DNA of 64,000 nucleotides from Elusimicrobia bacterium GWA2_66_18 (GTDB taxonomy: Bacteria; Elusimicrobiota; Elusimicrobia; UBA1565; UBA9628). The first letter of the stretch is position 1; the number at the start of each line of letters is the position of its first letter. A program made the translations under genes and the position numbers. Positions 10,105 through 18,278 of the stretch are shown here, one piece after another. Below the pieces are notes generated by a model that was not told the DNA's origin, ran no database searches, and worked only from the letters and a program-made list of their open reading frames with translations. The stretch spans positions 1 to 64,000 of the forward strand of contig MGTX01000014.1 in assembly GCA_001799675.1 (NCBI GenBank), read 5' to 3'.

Positions 10105-11112
10105 CTATTGCAGCGGCTCGGCGAGAGTGGCCTCTTCCTTCGTCATGGGCTCGTGAGCCTGGTGGGGCTCGACGCGGATGGGGCAGGCGTCGTCGGTGCA
10201 GCGAGCGCAGTACTTGCGCCGGCAGGGGTCGATGTGGGTGTGGACCTCGCCCTCCAGGCCGGCCGCCGCGATGAGAGCCGTCTCGAAGCGCTCCGCGGCG
10301 TCGTGCGCCTTGACGACCTCCTCGTACTCCGGCACGACCAGGTGGATGTCCACGTGCGTGTAGCGCCCCGAGCGGATGGCGCGCAGGCCGTGCACGGTGA
10401 TGATCCCGTTCTTCGCCACGCCCTTGTGCAGGAGCCCGTCGAGGCTGGCCACGATGATCTCGATCATGCCCGTATCCTCCTCATCGAGGAGCGCGGAGGC
10501 GGCCTCGCGCACCAGGCCGAAGCCGGTCTTGGCGAGGATGAGGGCGACGAGGATGGCCACGAGCGGATCGAGCCATCTCAGACCGGTCGCCATGACCATC
10601 AGGAGTCCGATCAATATCCCGACCGAGGTATAAAAGTCGGAGAGGACGTGGCGCCCGTCGGCCACGAGCGTCTTTGACTTAAGACGCTGCCCCGCATGGA
10701 TGAGATAGCGGCCCAGCAGTCCGTTGAGAGCCCCCGCCAGGACATTCAGGGCCAGGCCCACACCCAGGCTCTTGAGCTCGACGCCCCTGAAGAGGACCAT
10801 CACCGACTCGTACAGGATGATGACGGCCGCCAGCGAGATGAGGCCGCCTTCGAAGGCGGCGGCGAAGTACTCCATCTTGCCGTGGCCGTAGGGATGATCG
10901 CGGTCGGCGGGCTGGCCGGCGAAGAGGACCGCGCCCAGGCTGAAGGCGGCGGCCACGACGTTGACGATGCTCTCCAGCGCATCCGATTGGAGGGCCATCG
11001 AACCGGTCAGGAAGTAGGCCGCCGCCTTGAGCGCCAGGATCGCTATACCCGCGACGAGCGAGATGAGGATGGCGCGCACGCGCCCGCGTTGGGCCTGCTC
11101 GGCGTGAGTCAT
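10105..11112 (-). CDS. Cation diffusion facilitator (CDF) family transporter
   Basis: SMALQSDALESIVNVVAAAFSL, HPYGHGKMEYFAA; C-terminal Cys cluster CRRKYCARCTDDAC. Confidence 0.9.
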   Translation of the reverse strand: MTHAEQAQRGRVRAILISLVAGIAILALKAAAYFLTGSMALQSDALESIVNVVAAAFSLGAVLFAGQPADRDHPYGHGKMEYFAAAFEGGLISLAAVIILYESVMVLFRGVELKSLGVGLALNVLAGALNGLLGRYLIHAGQRLKSKTLVADGRHVLSDFYTSVGILIGLLMVMATGLRWLDPLVAILVALILAKTGFGLVREAASALLDEEDTGMIEIIVASLDGLLHKGVAKNGIITVHGLRAIRSGRYTHVDIHLVVPEYEEVVKAHDAAERFETALIAAAGLEGEVHTHIDPCRRKYCARCTDDACPIRVEPHQAHEPMTKEEATLAEPLQ

Positions 11113-11116
11113 ATGT

Positions 11117-11560
11117 TTACGGTCCGACGACACACTGCCCTCCCAAGCCGGTATTGACGCCTCTTTGGACGTCGATGACGCTGCACGAGCCGTCGCCGTT
11201 TAAATCCGACGTGCAAGCCGCCGCGCCCAGGGCCGCATTGACCTGCAATTGCACGTCCGCCACGTCGGTCGAACCGTCCCGATTGACGTCGCAGGCGGAA
11301 TAAACGCTCAAGGTGAGCGTGCCGGCGCCCGTGCCGCCCGCGTTGGCGGCGCTTATGGCCACGCTGGAAGTCCCGATCGTCGCGGGCGTTCCGGAGATGA
11401 GGCCCATGACGGTGTTGACCGACAAGCCCGCCGGCAGGCCGGCGGCGTTGAAGCTCGTGGGGCTGTTGGCGGCCGTGATCTGATAGCTCAACGCGGTTCC
11501 TACCGTGCCGGTCGAGGTCAGCGCGCTGGTGATGACCGGCGCGAGGCTGCCGGTCGCGCC
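11117..11560 (-). repeat. Putative-Ig + dockerin tail cassette, copy 1
   Basis: Core ttggcggcgcttatggccacgctggaagtcccgatcgtcgcgggcgttccggagatgaggccc is identical to copy 2; the rest is highly similar. Confidence 0.9.
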
Positions 11561-14500
11561 TAGAGTGAAAATATAACCATTGCCCATTATCTGACCATTG
11601 CTTGCATCAACCGCGACGGTAAAATTGCTCTTCAACTTAATCGTATTGCCGACGACGTTAACATCCGCGCTCCCATCTCCAGACTCTATGAAGTAGCCAT
11701 CCACGCGTTGCGTGGAGAGCACCGCTTCACCAGCTTTAAGCGTTACGACCCCATTCGTTGAATTGAACACCACGAAGAGTTTTCCTTTATTAACTAGGTT
11801 GGCGGTTCCGGGATGGCGGGAATACATCACATCTCCATCTATGCGGCTTTGTTGATAGCCGTTGGCGTCGTAGCTGTCGTAGACGGGGTTGGTAAGGCTA
11901 GTGTTATTGTTCAAAACACGATGAGCAGGGTCAACCGCTATCCCATTGAGATTATCCCAATTTGGAATAACGCGGATAAGCTTGAGACGGGGGTAGACCT
12001 GGGTGATACTTTGAAAATCCGGCATAGTCCCTACCCCTCCAAATCTTCCAAACCAATTAAACCAAGCCCCATTTTTGCCTGCCTTTGCTGCAATTCGACG
12101 ATTAACGAGTTCTTCTACTTTACTCGATTGCGCCGAACCCACCATATCTTTGGTGATTTTCATGCCGGCATAAGCCGGCATACGGTTCGGATCATTAAAA
12201 TCATCAATAAATTCAGTTGTTGCGCCTTCAGAGAGCAGTATATCCGGAGCTAGTGAATCCCTATCTGCCAACCTTTGACTTACTGTGTATATCCATTCCT
12301 CTATAGCCTGCGGATTATATAACCAAGATGGCTCCAATCCCCATTTGGCATTACTATAGGTTTTCTTGGTTTCTGCGCTAAGCTGCTTATGATACTGCGC
12401 CATACCGTTACTATATGTTGTGAACTGCTTAATGGTTGTTCCATCCAATCCTACATGAGAAACCCCGGAATCTGTACCTGTCCATAAAGCCAAAGTGGCT
12501 GAACCGCCAGGAGGGTTTGCGGTATCTCTATAAAACACTCCGGTAATCGCGGCCACATCTGAAATATAACCAGCAAAACTCATCCCGGTATTAGTTTTGT
12601 AAGCATTTACAGATGCGATTATACCATTAACAACTTCATCAATAACTGCTTGCTGCTGGAAATCCCAGGTTGGTTGGAACTTGGTCGAGACATACGGTGG
12701 GGGATTGCCTCCACAAGCAAACATATCAGGCCATGTCGATTTAGCATCCTTCCATGTCATTCTCTTACTGTACCAATCTTTTTGCGCCTGTGTATAAACA
12801 AAACCAGACCCAGGAGTAACATCTATGACTCTCGGATTAAGGATCGTTTTCCCATATGCATCTGTTTTAGGAAGAGTAGCGAACAAATTGTAATCATAAT
12901 ATGGGTCAGTCAGATAAAAACTTAGTCCGACTCCTTGCGTATTATAAACATTAACCCCAGATCTCATGATGGCAATATGGTCATAGCCCATCTGTTTGGC
13001 ATATTTTATTGAATTGAATGCGTTATCTCTCCAGGCAATGGCATAAATATTTTTCCAGCTCTCGTCCTTAGCCAGAACGATAGAAGCGCTGTAAGCTGAG
13101 GATAAATTGCCCAGGATATCCCTATACCAGACATAGACAGTTTTGCTTCCGTCTTGGGGAGAAAGATAATAGGGCATAAATCCGGAATAATTCGCGGATG
13201 GAGCGACGCTCTTCCAGTTAGGGCTGGAAGCAGGGGGGGCAGTGTTTGATTCTGAAGCGTAATAAGCGTTGACCTGATCGGGATCGTCAGCGGCCAGGTT
13301 AAGATAAACCCGCTCGCTATTCGTGGGAATAAGGGTTCCGTAGTTTATCTGGAGTGAGCCGGTAGGCCCGGAGTTTTGAGCCGCAGTTGTGGCGCCGGCT
13401 GGACTGCTTTGAGCGCTGGCATTGCCTGCGGCGTCATAAGCCGAAATAGTATAATAATAATTAGTATTCGCTGAAAGGCCGATATTTGAATAGGTTGTTC
13501 CGGAAGTTATCGAAGCTATCAGGTTTGTCCCTCTATACACACGATATCCGGCAACTCCCACATTATCATTAGAAGCGCTCCAGGAAAGGTCTATCCGGGA
13601 AGAAGAAATAGCGGTAGCGGTAAGATTCTGCGGGACACTGGGCGCAGTGCTATCTAAAGTAGTAAAAGACATCTCGCTCCCATTAGTAGTGCCTGCGCTG
13701 TTAGTAGCCGCCACCCTATAATAATAGGTGGTATTTGGGGATAAGCCGGTTAAATTGGCTCCTACTGATGTAGTGCCGCTTGAAGCGGATATGCTATTGG
13801 GATTAGCATTAATCTTCCCATAATAAGAGCCTGAGGTTGTACCATAGTCAAAGTGAACATTGGTAGACGAACCGTTGGGGTTAACGTTGCCGTTTAAAGT
13901 GGCTGAAGTTGCGGTTCGGTTAGTTTCGGAGTTAGTAGTTGCCGTAGGGGCTGCCGAAGTTGATTGGGATAGAGTAAAGATATAGCCTGCGCCCTGCGCT
14001 TGTTCTGTAGCAGTCAAAGCTCTGGTTAAGGTTATTTGATTTCCTGAAATGCTAAAGTCACCGCTTTTAACATCACTGCCTGCCTCAATAAAATATCCGT
14101 CAACACCATAAGCTGAAAGCGCTGTCTCCCCAGGCTTAAGATTAATCACTCCATTAGTGGTATTAAACACCGCGAAGAGCTTGCCGGTCTTCCAGTGGCG
14201 GGAATACATCACATCGCTGCTAATATAACTATTTGTGCTTTGATATACAGAGCCGTTCCAAGAACGCGACCCAAGCGGAACATTCGTAAGATTATCCCAG
14301 TTGGGAATACACTTAATTAATTTTAATCTTGGATAAACCTGTTTAATGCTTGTCCAAGACATAACAGTTCCAGAAGTGCCAAATGTCAGGCTCCAATTAA
14401 ACCAGGCTCCATTAATTCCTGCTTTTCCAGCGATAGTTCGATTTTCTACTTCTCCTGCAATATTCGGGCCGGAAGACATTTGGCTTCCAACCATATTTTT

Positions 14501-15604
14501 TGTGATAGCCATGCTGGCAAGATCCTGGGCTCGTAGCGTATTATTAAAATTATCGACAAATTCGGTTGTTGGCCCCTCCTCGGATAGCATATCGGGAGTT
14601 AATAAATCCTTATCTGACCTATTGCTTACTTGGTTAACGTATTCATCTACTGTCCATGGTTGTGTAGTATCATTCCAATTCCATAATCTAGCCGGCTCTA
14701 TCAACCATTTAGCATTCGACCATTGCCCCTTCATTCTGGCATTTAAATCCTTATAAAACGCAGCCATTCCGTCACTATAGATTGTATATTGTTTAGTCGA
14801 AGTTCCATCTATTCCAATGTGGGGAACCCCATAATTTCCTCCTGTCCAATATTTTAAGGTGGTAATACCGGGTGTTGCAGGGATTCCCGTACCGTCAGAA
14901 TAAAATACACCCGTCAGCGTAGGCACATCAAAATAAACTCCCGCAAAAGGCATAGATGTTTTTGCTACAAAATTTGCCGCCGCCGCAAGAATATTATCAA
15001 CAACCTCTTTTATTACTGCTTGCTGTTGGAAATCCCAAAAAGGAGCAAATCTAGTATAATTTGTCAACCATCCCCAACCTCCATTAGCAAGATTATTAGG
15101 CCATTGTGCTGTTGTATTTTTCCATACCATGCGCTGGTTGTACCAATTCTTTTGCGCTTGCGTATAACAATAGACCGTTCTTGGTGTACCGTCAGAATTG
15201 GTTCCTCGTGTACCGTCAGGATTATAGACAGGAGTAACATCTATCATTCTTATATTAAGTACAGTTCTTCCATTTAGGTCTGGTTGTGGAAACGCGGCAT
15301 AAACCTGCGGGTCATAGTAAGGATCTATCATAAAGAAACTGAGTTTCTGGTTTGGATTATTTATACTGTCAGTCTTATAAACATTATTATTCTGCCAAGC
15401 AAAAGAGGGTTTAATACCGATATGATCATAACCCATCTGTCTTGCGTAAATTACAGCATTGGCAGGAACATCGTTTGCAATAATTGTATACCGATTTTTC
15501 CAGCTCTCATTTGACTGCTGCTGTGATTGCGCGGAGGTGTTTAGTGCAGAAACCTGAGTTAATACTAAAGCCGTCAACCCCAAAAGCTTAATCATCTTTT
15601 TCAT
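11117..15604 (-). CDS. Large secreted modular protein: duplicated putative TIM-barrel/glycosidase-like module flanking two FN3-like domains, then putative-Ig and dockerin-type tail
   Basis: Start MKKMIKLLGL signal peptide. Modules begin ESWKNRYTIIANDVPANAVIYARQMGYDHIGI and ESWKNIYAIAWRDNAFNSIKYAKQMGYDHIAI. FN3-like APSVPQNLTATAISSSRIDLSW. C-terminal DVNRDGSTDVADVQLQVNAALG / DLNGDGSCSVIDVQRGVNTGLG. Confidence 0.75.
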   Translation of the reverse strand: MKKMIKLLGLTALVLTQVSALNTSAQSQQQSNESWKNRYTIIANDVPANAVIYARQMGYDHIGIKPSFAWQNNNVYKTDSINNPNQKLSFFMIDPYYDPQVYAAFPQPDLNGRTVLNIRMIDVTPVYNPDGTRGTNSDGTPRTVYCYTQAQKNWYNQRMVWKNTTAQWPNNLANGGWGWLTNYTRFAPFWDFQQQAVIKEVVDNILAAAANFVAKTSMPFAGVYFDVPTLTGVFYSDGTGIPATPGITTLKYWTGGNYGVPHIGIDGTSTKQYTIYSDGMAAFYKDLNARMKGQWSNAKWLIEPARLWNWNDTTQPWTVDEYVNQVSNRSDKDLLTPDMLSEEGPTTEFVDNFNNTLRAQDLASMAITKNMVGSQMSSGPNIAGEVENRTIAGKAGINGAWFNWSLTFGTSGTVMSWTSIKQVYPRLKLIKCIPNWDNLTNVPLGSRSWNGSVYQSTNSYISSDVMYSRHWKTGKLFAVFNTTNGVINLKPGETALSAYGVDGYFIEAGSDVKSGDFSISGNQITLTRALTATEQAQGAGYIFTLSQSTSAAPTATTNSETNRTATSATLNGNVNPNGSSTNVHFDYGTTSGSYYGKINANPNSISASSGTTSVGANLTGLSPNTTYYYRVAATNSAGTTNGSEMSFTTLDSTAPSVPQNLTATAISSSRIDLSWSASNDNVGVAGYRVYRGTNLIASITSGTTYSNIGLSANTNYYYTISAYDAAGNASAQSSPAGATTAAQNSGPTGSLQINYGTLIPTNSERVYLNLAADDPDQVNAYYASESNTAPPASSPNWKSVAPSANYSGFMPYYLSPQDGSKTVYVWYRDILGNLSSAYSASIVLAKDESWKNIYAIAWRDNAFNSIKYAKQMGYDHIAIMRSGVNVYNTQGVGLSFYLTDPYYDYNLFATLPKTDAYGKTILNPRVIDVTPGSGFVYTQAQKDWYSKRMTWKDAKSTWPDMFACGGNPPPYVSTKFQPTWDFQQQAVIDEVVNGIIASVNAYKTNTGMSFAGYISDVAAITGVFYRDTANPPGGSATLALWTGTDSGVSHVGLDGTTIKQFTTYSNGMAQYHKQLSAETKKTYSNAKWGLEPSWLYNPQAIEEWIYTVSQRLADRDSLAPDILLSEGATTEFIDDFNDPNRMPAYAGMKITKDMVGSAQSSKVEELVNRRIAAKAGKNGAWFNWFGRFGGVGTMPDFQSITQVYPRLKLIRVIPNWDNLNGIAVDPAHRVLNNNTSLTNPVYDSYDANGYQQSRIDGDVMYSRHPGTANLVNKGKLFVVFNSTNGVVTLKAGEAVLSTQRVDGYFIESGDGSADVNVVGNTIKLKSNFTVAVDASNGQIMGNGYIFTLGATGSLAPVITSALTSTGTVGTALSYQITAANSPTSFNAAGLPAGLSVNTVMGLISGTPATIGTSSVAISAANAGGTGAGTLTLSVYSACDVNRDGSTDVADVQLQVNAALGAAACTSDLNGDGSCSVIDVQRGVNTGLGGQCVVGP

Positions 15605-15644
15605 AGGCCCCCTCTCTCCATTCGTCTGGGCGCAAGTCATATAT

Positions 15645-16070
15645 TTATGGACCGACGACACACGGTCCTCCCAAGCCGGCATTGACGCCCCTTTGAACGT
15701 CGATCACGTTGCATAAGCCGTCGCGGTTTAAATCCGACGTGCAAGCCGTCGCGCCCAAAGCCTGATTGACCTGCAATTGCACGTCCACCACGTTGGTCGA
15801 CCCATCCTGGTTTAGATCGCAGGCCGAATAGACGCTCAACGCCAGGCTAGCAGAGCCCGTGCCGCTTGAGTTGGCGGCGCTTATGGCCACGCTGGAAGTC
15901 CCGATCGTCGCGGGCGTTCCGGAGATGAGGCCCGTGACGGTGTTGACCGACAAGCCCGCCGGCAGGCCCGCGGCGCTGAAGCTCACGGGGCTGTTGACGG
16001 CCGTGATCTGGTAGCTCAACGCGGTTCCTATCGTGCCGGTCGAGGTCAGCGCGCTGGTGATGACCGGCGC
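15645..16070 (-). repeat. Putative-Ig + dockerin tail cassette, copy 2
   Basis: Same cassette as 11117-11560, including the shared ending CVVGP. Confidence 0.9.
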
Positions 16071-18278
16071 GGAGATGCCGGGGTTGTTGACCACCACGGT
16101 GACGGCCGCCAAGGCGGCGTTGCCCGAGATGTCGACGGCCCTGGCGGTGATGATATGACTGCTATTGGTCAGAGCGGCGGTGTTGAAGCTGAAAGTCCAG
16201 GAAGCTGTGCCCGAGGCCAGGCCGTAGGCCGCCCCGTCGATGAAAACGGCAACGCTCGAGACGACGACGTTGTCGGTGGCGACGCCGGTGATGACCGTGA
16301 TTCCGGACACATTGCTTCCGGTGGTGGGGCTGGTGATGGCAATAGACGGGAGTTGAGTATCCGAGCCTGATGGCGCATTATTCCTTATCATCGCTCCGGG
16401 AAGGTTGGCGATATCCGCAGCATAAGCCAGCTTGTTGCGCAGGGTAAAAACCTGAGTAAACCAATCAATTTCGTCAATAAATCTGGTTTCATTTTTAACC
16501 GTTTTAACAGTTTTATTGATATCCAAAATATAGGAATTCCATAATTCAAAACTTCTTGAACCGATATTGAAAGCGTTGTAAAAGCCTTGGCGTATTTTTA
16601 GGAACTGGCTGTCGTCCAAAGAACTGCTGTCAAAGAAACTGTTAGATGCCTGCGTCCAATTCATTCCTCCGTCTTGACCGGCTGCTCGCAGGTTCCACCA
16701 ATTGCGGACAGGGGGGATAGGAATGGTCTCATCATATTGATTTCCGGTTAAAGCGTATTCGATCCCTTTAGTGTCGCTCGTGCTGCCGTCAAGGCTGTAA
16801 TTGGCAAAAATAAGACCGGGGTCTCTGGGAAAGGGCTTATTATCCAGCATCACGGCGTTATAAAAATAATCGTACCAATCGCTTTTACCGTCATATTGGT
16901 CGCCCCAACTTGTTTTAAACCAATTATGGTTTAAAAAAGAGTTTGAATTAATAACGTAACCGGAGTTGTTTTTTATGCCGGCGACGACGCCGGCGCCATA
17001 TTGAGGAAAAGCGCTCAAGGCCCAGCTCATCCATTGAGCTCGAGTCATGTTGTGAGAAGACAGATATGTCTTGAACTCGGTCGGATCCAACCCATACCAG
17101 CCATATTGGCCGGGATCGGGACCGGGAGCGGCGACCGGCCGGGAGATAAAGCCGATGACGGAATTAAGAGGATCGGTTTTATCACCGTAAACACCCATCA
17201 CCACATCGTAAAGAGCATTGTTAGCGCTATTGTGCACGATAAGCTCGCTTAAGTCGTTGATAGTCGTGTCGTCGTAGACTTCCAACCAGCAAGAATCCGG
17301 CTTGGGCAGGCTATTCCTGTCTATAATCATTCTGAATGAATGACCCTTAGCCTCCCAATCATCATAGGCCCAAACTGGACCGAAATTAGTTTGACTGCCG
17401 TCCAGGTTGTTTTTATCATCACATGTCGTTGCCCCGCTTGAAAGCGCAATTGAATTAGTGCCTCTGATATATAAATTAACTTTTTTATCTGCGGCGCCGG
17501 CTTGAGCGAGAATCCTGGCCACATATTGACCCATTGAGCTGGTTTTATACTGTTGGGGAGTGATCGGGCCGTTGGGCTGAATCCTGGACCAGGACAAACT
17601 CAAGGATAGACCATCAATCCAATTTTGATTCAGCGCCCATATTGGAGAACCAGGCTGAGTATCGAGAGTGGATGTAGAAATGTTTCCAAACCAGTAGATG
17701 CCTCCCCAATGAGTTTGACGTGGGCTTACGGCCAGCGCGCCGGCTTGCATGCCTATTCTTTCCGGCTGAGCGAGAAGCCAACGGATGGACATCGGCCCGG
17801 AGTTGGCGCTGAAGGCATTCCTTTTGATAACCAGCTTAATATTACGGTCTGTCTGAGTGTAAGCGGCTTGACTCGGCAAAGGATCATTCCAATCATTATC
17901 ATTGATCAGAAGCATGAAAAATCCGTCCTTGCCGTTGTTTTTCCAAGGACCGCCGAAATTATTATAATCTTCCATTGCTTGAATACTGCCGACGGATTTC
18001 GAAATACCCGTATTATCCACTAAATCAAAAGAAATCACGTCGCCGGTTTTTACATTCTTCGCTTGAAATAATAAGCGGATATTGCCGGGCATTTGAGGCA
18101 GACCAAGGGCTTCGATTGTATCCGCTGCAATTCCCCGATCACCGGCGTCGGGATAGCCGAAAGAGACCGTCTGCGCCGATGCAATATTGCCAGACGATAA
18201 AAACAGAGTCGCCGCAATTGCGGTTCCCATGCCGCGATCCCTAATTCTACTGTGCCGCACTTGGTATAAATCCATCAA
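15645..18278 (-). CDS. Secreted modular protein of unknown catalytic function with Ig-like repeats and dockerin-type C-terminus
   Basis: Signal peptide (possible start M17 at 18230), Big-type SPTTGSNVSGITVITGVATDN, putative-Ig APVITSALTSTGTIGTALSYQITA, dockerin-like DLNQDGSTNVVDVQ/DLNRDGLCNVIDVQ, terminal CVVGP. Confidence 0.7.
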   Translation of the reverse strand: MMDLYQVRHSRIRDRGMGTAIAATLFLSSGNIASAQTVSFGYPDAGDRGIAADTIEALGLPQMPGNIRLLFQAKNVKTGDVISFDLVDNTGISKSVGSIQAMEDYNNFGGPWKNNGKDGFFMLLINDNDWNDPLPSQAAYTQTDRNIKLVIKRNAFSANSGPMSIRWLLAQPERIGMQAGALAVSPRQTHWGGIYWFGNISTSTLDTQPGSPIWALNQNWIDGLSLSLSWSRIQPNGPITPQQYKTSSMGQYVARILAQAGAADKKVNLYIRGTNSIALSSGATTCDDKNNLDGSQTNFGPVWAYDDWEAKGHSFRMIIDRNSLPKPDSCWLEVYDDTTINDLSELIVHNSANNALYDVVMGVYGDKTDPLNSVIGFISRPVAAPGPDPGQYGWYGLDPTEFKTYLSSHNMTRAQWMSWALSAFPQYGAGVVAGIKNNSGYVINSNSFLNHNWFKTSWGDQYDGKSDWYDYFYNAVMLDNKPFPRDPGLIFANYSLDGSTSDTKGIEYALTGNQYDETIPIPPVRNWWNLRAAGQDGGMNWTQASNSFFDSSSLDDSQFLKIRQGFYNAFNIGSRSFELWNSYILDINKTVKTVKNETRFIDEIDWFTQVFTLRNKLAYAADIANLPGAMIRNNAPSGSDTQLPSIAITSPTTGSNVSGITVITGVATDNVVVSSVAVFIDGAAYGLASGTASWTFSFNTAALTNSSHIITARAVDISGNAALAAVTVVVNNPGISAPVITSALTSTGTIGTALSYQITAVNSPVSFSAAGLPAGLSVNTVTGLISGTPATIGTSSVAISAANSSGTGSASLALSVYSACDLNQDGSTNVVDVQLQVNQALGATACTSDLNRDGLCNVIDVQRGVNAGLGGPCVVGP

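Follow-up and report, generated by a model that had tools for sequence, protein, structure and literature searches.

Firmicutes and Bacteroidetes are known to have cohesin-dockerin systems, and MAGs have added Cloacimonadota to the list (PMC6071333, PMC8542988). In the Cloacimonadota MAG of “Candidatus Stygibacter”, dockerin enzymes are accompanied by a cohesin protein that ends in a domain for surface attachment; the complex has one large scaffoldin with CBMs (PMC8542988). The phylum Elusimicrobia has been described as largely devoid of cellulase machinery (PMC7031533), and its rumen member Bin206 has one dockerin and no cohesin (PMC6071333).

The genome of Elusimicrobia bacterium GWA2_66_18 (here, G000) can be compared with each of these. 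Like the clostridial cellulosome (type I cohesin-dockerin), it has a C-terminal dockerin with a duplicated Ca loop on secreted proteins and a cohesin that is recognized as such (PF00963, 1g1k). Unlike it, the G000 assembly has neither a many-cohesin nor a CBM3-bearing scaffoldin, 18 of 19 genes have a He_PIG domain ahead of the dockerin, the dockerin has four conserved cysteines, and body and tail form a composition mosaic. As in “Ca. Stygibacter”, the evidence comes from a MAG outside the Firmicutes, and a T9SS type A sorting domain is found in a cohesin protein of a second Elusimicrobia genome (G226); unlike in that complex, there are two cohesins in the G226 protein and one per protein in G000. 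Within the same phylum, Bin206 (PMC6071333) and GBS-CoSAG_05 (PMC7031533) have an isolated dockerin or CBMs and, in contrast to G000, no reported cohesin-dockerin pair.

We consider it quite likely that G000 has a lineage-specific, cellulosome-like cohesin-dockerin system into which foreign bodies were recruited by attachment to a GC-rich tail, the tails being then duplicated and homogenized. The tail would be a docking module, composed of an Ig spacer and a dockerin, within a system that belongs to this lineage alone. Secreted bodies, the majority of them enzyme-like and the majority foreign and AT-rich, would have been fused in frame upstream of the native GC-rich tail, and the tails would have been duplicated and homogenized via recombination, chiefly among tandem-array neighbors, with the bodies staying divergent. 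The exported proteins would dock by their tails on cohesins, namely, a small protein with a single cohesin, an adaptor that combines cohesin and dockerin, and possibly a T9SS-sorted multicohesin scaffoldin located in an assembly gap, to form a cellulosome-like complex at the cell surface. Both the surface anchoring of this complex and the catalytic function of the bodies are what we infer from sequence.

Two of the genes, w1 and w2, lie next to each other on the minus strand of the analyzed window (64,000 nucleotides; contig MGTX01000014.1, positions 1 to 64,000); both products are predicted to be secreted, and coordinates are based on the likeliest ATG starts. According to its open reading frame, translation, and Pfam and profile matches, w1 (11117..15604) encodes a signal peptide (MKKMIKLLGLTALVLTQVSA), two copies of a body domain that we call A1, two fibronectin-III-like domains (13400..13912; Pfam fn3/Pur_ac_phosph_N) and the tail. 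The first A1 copy (13967..15511; GC of ~0.42) was delimited by profile match and composition and the second (11561..13066) by profile match and alignment, in which the two are 52% identical. The GC-rich w1 tail (11117..11560), defined by its GC content, the GC3 change-point and the copies found elsewhere in the genome, contains a He_PIG domain (11312-11542) and a two-loop dockerin with its core at 11165-11290. In w2 (15645..18230; open reading frame and Pfam), an AT-rich body (16341..18155), bounded by the change-point and without a match in Pfam, is followed by a GC-rich Big_7 Ig domain (16143..16349; Pfam, change-point and GC) and by a He_PIG-dockerin tail (15645..16070; Pfam and genome copies), in which He_PIG (15831-16070) is recognized by Pfam. 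The two tails share 84% identity at the protein level and 89% at the DNA level. The perfect core of ~60 bp that the earlier note had described is their longest exact common run, 64 bp (11342..11405 in w1, paired with 15870..15933 in w2, both on the minus strand), and both tails end in CVVGP as it had stated. On motif pattern alone, the A1 family may be glycosidase-like. AlphaFold predictions for the w1 body and for the tail, made from two-row alignments, had pLDDT values of 34 and 34, too low to be of use.

A genome-wide search detected the tail in ~19 genes of the 2.79-Mb genome, as well as a fragment on contig C7. Two of these genes are in the window, nine on contig C2, three on C4, two on C24 and one each on C10, C19 and C31. 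Eighteen of the 19 have He_PIG plus dockerin, the C31 gene has the dockerin without He_PIG, and C24a appears truncated. The nine C2 genes form one tight operon with intergenic gaps of mostly 8 to 23 bp. The dockerin has a duplicated Ca-binding loop and four conserved cysteines. Its Dockerin_1 matches in w1 and w2 are weak and under the curated Pfam cut-off (E values of 0.0092 and 0.08), and copies of the same tail in C24b, C4a, C31 and C4b exceed that cut-off (whole-frame scores); the tail profile had no match among dockerin structures in the PDB. The A1 body family occurs in six genes, among them w1 with its two copies, and the other bodies, including Sortilin/BNR-like propellers, right-handed beta helices, GHL15 plus GH20 and PA14, are present in one to four genes each. 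Domains assigned among the dockerin proteins are GHL15, GH20, beta-helix, Sortilin/BNR and NPCBM; the A1 and w2 bodies have no assignment. An Rfam search near the tail arrays yielded only a tRNA. The start of C7 lies inside a gene for a Big_7 plus T9SS-sorting-like protein (L029:3-580), directly after which there is a dockerin-tail remnant of ~25 codons. A 492-amino-acid protein (L067:5081-6559) has an N-terminal dockerin-like pair of Ca loops that is unrelated to the tail family.

Body and tail differ sharply in composition. In a window with a GC content of 0.641, the w1 body has 0.439 and the w1 tail 0.673, and the w2 body has 0.468 and the w2 tail 0.634. Likelihood analysis of GC3 places the change-point at codon 1348 of w1 (window position ~11560; log-likelihood gain of 60) and at codon 630 of w2 (~16340; gain of 43). 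The abrupt switch from AT-rich bodies to GC-rich, nearly identical tails, which had been noted from the sequence alone, is thus seen in both GC and GC3. For w1 it falls exactly where it had been placed; for w2 the switch is real, and its position is ~270 bp upstream of the proposed ~16070, because Big_7 belongs to the GC-rich part and marks its true start. Fourfold-degenerate sites show the same break (GC in body versus tail, 0.39 versus 0.90 in w1 and 0.53 versus 0.84 in w2), so an amino acid effect is ruled out as its source. A rise in GC3 from ~0.4 to 0.6 up to ~0.8 is present in 14 of the ~19 tail genes; the genome baseline is 0.83, and tail GC3 is at the baseline level. C4a, C10, C19 and C31 have GC-rich bodies and no clear GC3 break. 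The break lies on a domain boundary in eight of the 14 genes. It is located 5 to 8 codons ahead of He_PIG in w1, C2e, C2g and C4b; ~90 to 103 codons ahead of it, at the start of Big_7, in w2, C2d, C2f and C24b; within Big_7 in C2b, C2c and C2h; and farther upstream in C2a, C2i and C4c. In C2i (L023:10302-12257) the change-point is 175 codons ahead of He_PIG, inside the A1 body, which suggests either that recombination took place within this body or that the end of the gene has become more even in composition.

Body and tail of the tail-bearing genes have different histories. In pairwise comparisons of A1 genes, synonymous sites are saturated in the bodies (dS above 1.7 or undefined), versus a dS of 0.22 to 0.48 in the tails, by a method that ignores codon bias (GC-rich third positions are estimated to saturate near a pS of 0.6; the observed pS is ~0.19 to 0.35). 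Tail similarity follows the array (permutation P = 0.0005) and not the family to which the body belongs (P = 0.22). In the C2 operon, for example, tail identity is 0.875 for same-body pairs and 0.874 for different-body pairs. Neighboring sites in the tails are also more compatible than shuffled ones (P = 0.001, home-made PHI-like test). Similarity by location together with this recombination signal is the pattern of concerted evolution or gene conversion, and the suggestion that tails were copied between neighbors gains support from it and is compatible with attachment. A single phylogeny and composition for body and tail, which the earlier note had named as contrary evidence, was tested for and not found.

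In searches of 341 genomes of the phylum, the A1 and w2 bodies were each found in one, G000, and in none of the other 340. The A1 body had no match in plasmids, phages or viral contigs, and the w2 body had none in plasmids; the BNR body matched only distant plasmid proteins (~21 to 29% identity). Most of the bodies are presumably foreign, a horizontal origin that rests on their atypical composition and, for A1 and w2, on their absence from the 340 other genomes. A search of 18 congeners found the tail in none of them, and we regard it as resident in this lineage rather than in the genus. Elsewhere in the phylum, its dockerin is present in one genome among the 341, G226, which belongs to the same family and another genus, and a relative of its He_PIG, at 72% identity, is encoded in a named Elusimicrobia genome. 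The proposal that a resident tail was joined to horizontally acquired bodies is backed by the composition break, the dS contrast and the absence of the A1 and w2 bodies from 340 genomes. The word “resident” holds for the native composition of the tail and for the nearest named relative of its Ig domain; it does not hold with respect to the 18 congeners.

Three other accounts of the seam were weighed. That an assembler joined AT-rich foreign DNA to native tails is almost certainly wrong: the assembly is a draft of 34 contigs, and tail genes are found near contig ends (C4, C24, C31 and C7), but the 14 junctions are in frame, many of them on domain boundaries, the frames are open, GC-typical genes flank the C14 and C2 arrays on both sides, and contamination is 0.56%. 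The tails are multicopy and recombine, as would be expected if native bodies had drifted toward AT and GC-biased gene conversion among ~19 copies had raised the GC content of the tails. However, the bodies, not the tails, are the deviants from the baseline, four of the bodies are GC-rich, and the A1 and w2 bodies are missing from congeners and phylum, which makes this account very unlikely. It is likewise quite improbable that entire genes, body plus tail, came from outside and were then duplicated. The absence of the tail from 18 congeners speaks for such an acquisition, as does an AT-rich signal-peptide leader common to C2 genes with different body types (68% identity versus 37% for other signal peptides); the native composition of the tail, breaks that often coincide with domain boundaries, synonymous sites that are saturated in the bodies of one family and not in their tails, and the Elusimicrobia relative of He_PIG speak against it.

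A cohesin partner was sought across the genome. No cohesin is visible in the window, in agreement with the earlier note, and the search that it had proposed located two outside it. The C10 protein combines a cohesin (PF00963; E values of 2.4e-10 and 4e-10, above the cut-off) with two He_PIG domains and a dockerin of the w1/w2 type. The other, encoded by a C24 open reading frame next to two dockerin genes, is below the Pfam cut-off and is 57% identical to the C10 cohesin. A cohesin profile of four sequences matches type I cohesins in the PDB (1g1k, scaffolding protein; E value of 6e-5). This cohesin profile and the dockerin profile are each found in two of the 341 genomes, the same two, G000 and G226; all four sequences behind the cohesin profile come from these genomes, which limits its reach to distant cohesins, and the co-occurrence holds for that cohesin type. 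In G226, a PorV-like gene comes before a dockerin gene, and directly after the latter lies a gene for a two-cohesin protein. This protein was identified through 63 to 67% identity to the C10 domain (the Pfam Cohesin model gave no score), and its T9SS type A sorting domain scores over the NCBIfam cut-off. Dockerins on several secreted proteins and a cohesin thus occur in the same genome, and binding of the C10 and C24 cohesins to the w1/w2-type dockerin is likely because of co-occurrence, fusion and adjacency. Set against this, the tail might be a surface, Ca-binding or sorting module unconnected with cellulosomes and not the partner of the cohesins. Dockerin-like modules outside cellulosomes have precedent (Peer et al. 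reportedly described them in 2009, as cited in PMC8542988), the Pfam Dockerin_1 scores are borderline, and there are two cohesins for 19 tails; nevertheless, cohesin and dockerin co-occur exactly, in two genomes out of 341, and are fused in one protein and adjacent elsewhere, which renders this alternative unlikely.

A scaffoldin with multiple cohesins was not found in the G000 assembly, which contains only single-cohesin proteins, and the G000 search for T9SS tails gave only subthreshold matches. Contig C4 ends 4 bases into a possible gene, and the region upstream resembles that of the C10 cohesin gene. The 18-bp TTTTTACCGTAGCGCGGT is present after C4c at the contig end (L024:16493-16548) and before the C10 cohesin gene (L026:7240-7295); in both copies the 18 identical bases are followed by similar sequence and have the same distance to an ATG, and they could represent a shared promoter or operator. 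The gene at the start of C7, ending in Big_7 and a T9SS-like tail, resembles part of the G226 cohesin protein. Our guess is that a repeat-rich scaffoldin was lost in an assembly gap between the end of C4 and the start of C7. A third cohesin gene of G226 (L135:8322-8831) is interrupted by a contig end, and cohesin genes may have broken the assemblies of both genomes. Contig C164 of genome G004 (L068) has cohesin-like and thrombospondin-like repeats; its cohesin-like proteins look unrelated to the G000 and G226 cohesins, and it is possibly a contaminant from another phylum.

Traces of duplication are found around the tails. Past the w1 stop, 19 nucleotides (11098..11116, minus strand) include what is probably the ATG (~11112) of the next gene downstream, which encodes a CDF transporter, and a copy of this start region with 15 of 19 nucleotides identical follows the w2 stop (15626..15644, minus strand), as a direct repeat at the junction; its match was equaled by none of 20,000 random 19-mers from the window. 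The copy is probably a scar of a duplication of the tail plus its downstream flank, which looks as if it predated the arrival of the w1 body. A leftover tail end lies upstream of the first C2 gene (C2i), and ahead of C2c there is a leftover signal-peptide start with a frame that ends at the C2c ATG. Regarding the ancestral site, many members of the genus have CDF and MsrAB genes, but none of the stretches examined shows MsrAB beside CDF; in G004, CDF retains a nearby cytochrome neighbor and w1 and w2 are absent.

As an extension of tail-mediated recruitment, we tentatively propose that tandem tails might serve as homologous-recombination landing pads, at which single crossovers between tails would insert, delete or swap enzyme units in frame. 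Within an operon, each body would be flanked by the tail of the preceding gene and by its own tail, and the operon geometry and the scars are consistent with this possibility. Integron cassette arrays also combine variable parts with a constant one in tandem. The resemblance to variable bodies with a constant tail is an analogy only: the proposed homology here is the coding tail itself, and an unsystematic look at the junctions noticed no attC-like site or integrase. If true, the landing pads would amount to an integrase-free cassette array that loads captured foreign enzymes onto the organism's own scaffold.

The evolution of dockerin enzyme sets is usually deduced from old genes in which differences in composition have already been lost. 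What is unusual in this system is the visible composition seam, together with tails that are shared array-wise. Because the seam between a foreign-looking body and a native docking tag can still be seen in the nucleotide sequence of 14 genes, the stages of recruitment (foreign body, tagged, homogenized) can be ordered and tested. The analysis adds two or more orphan body families and a new candidate pair of cohesin and dockerin, in a lineage for which no report of a cohesin-dockerin system was found. This bacterium appears, as far as its genes can tell, to have its own multienzyme digestion machine, built by tagging captured enzymes.
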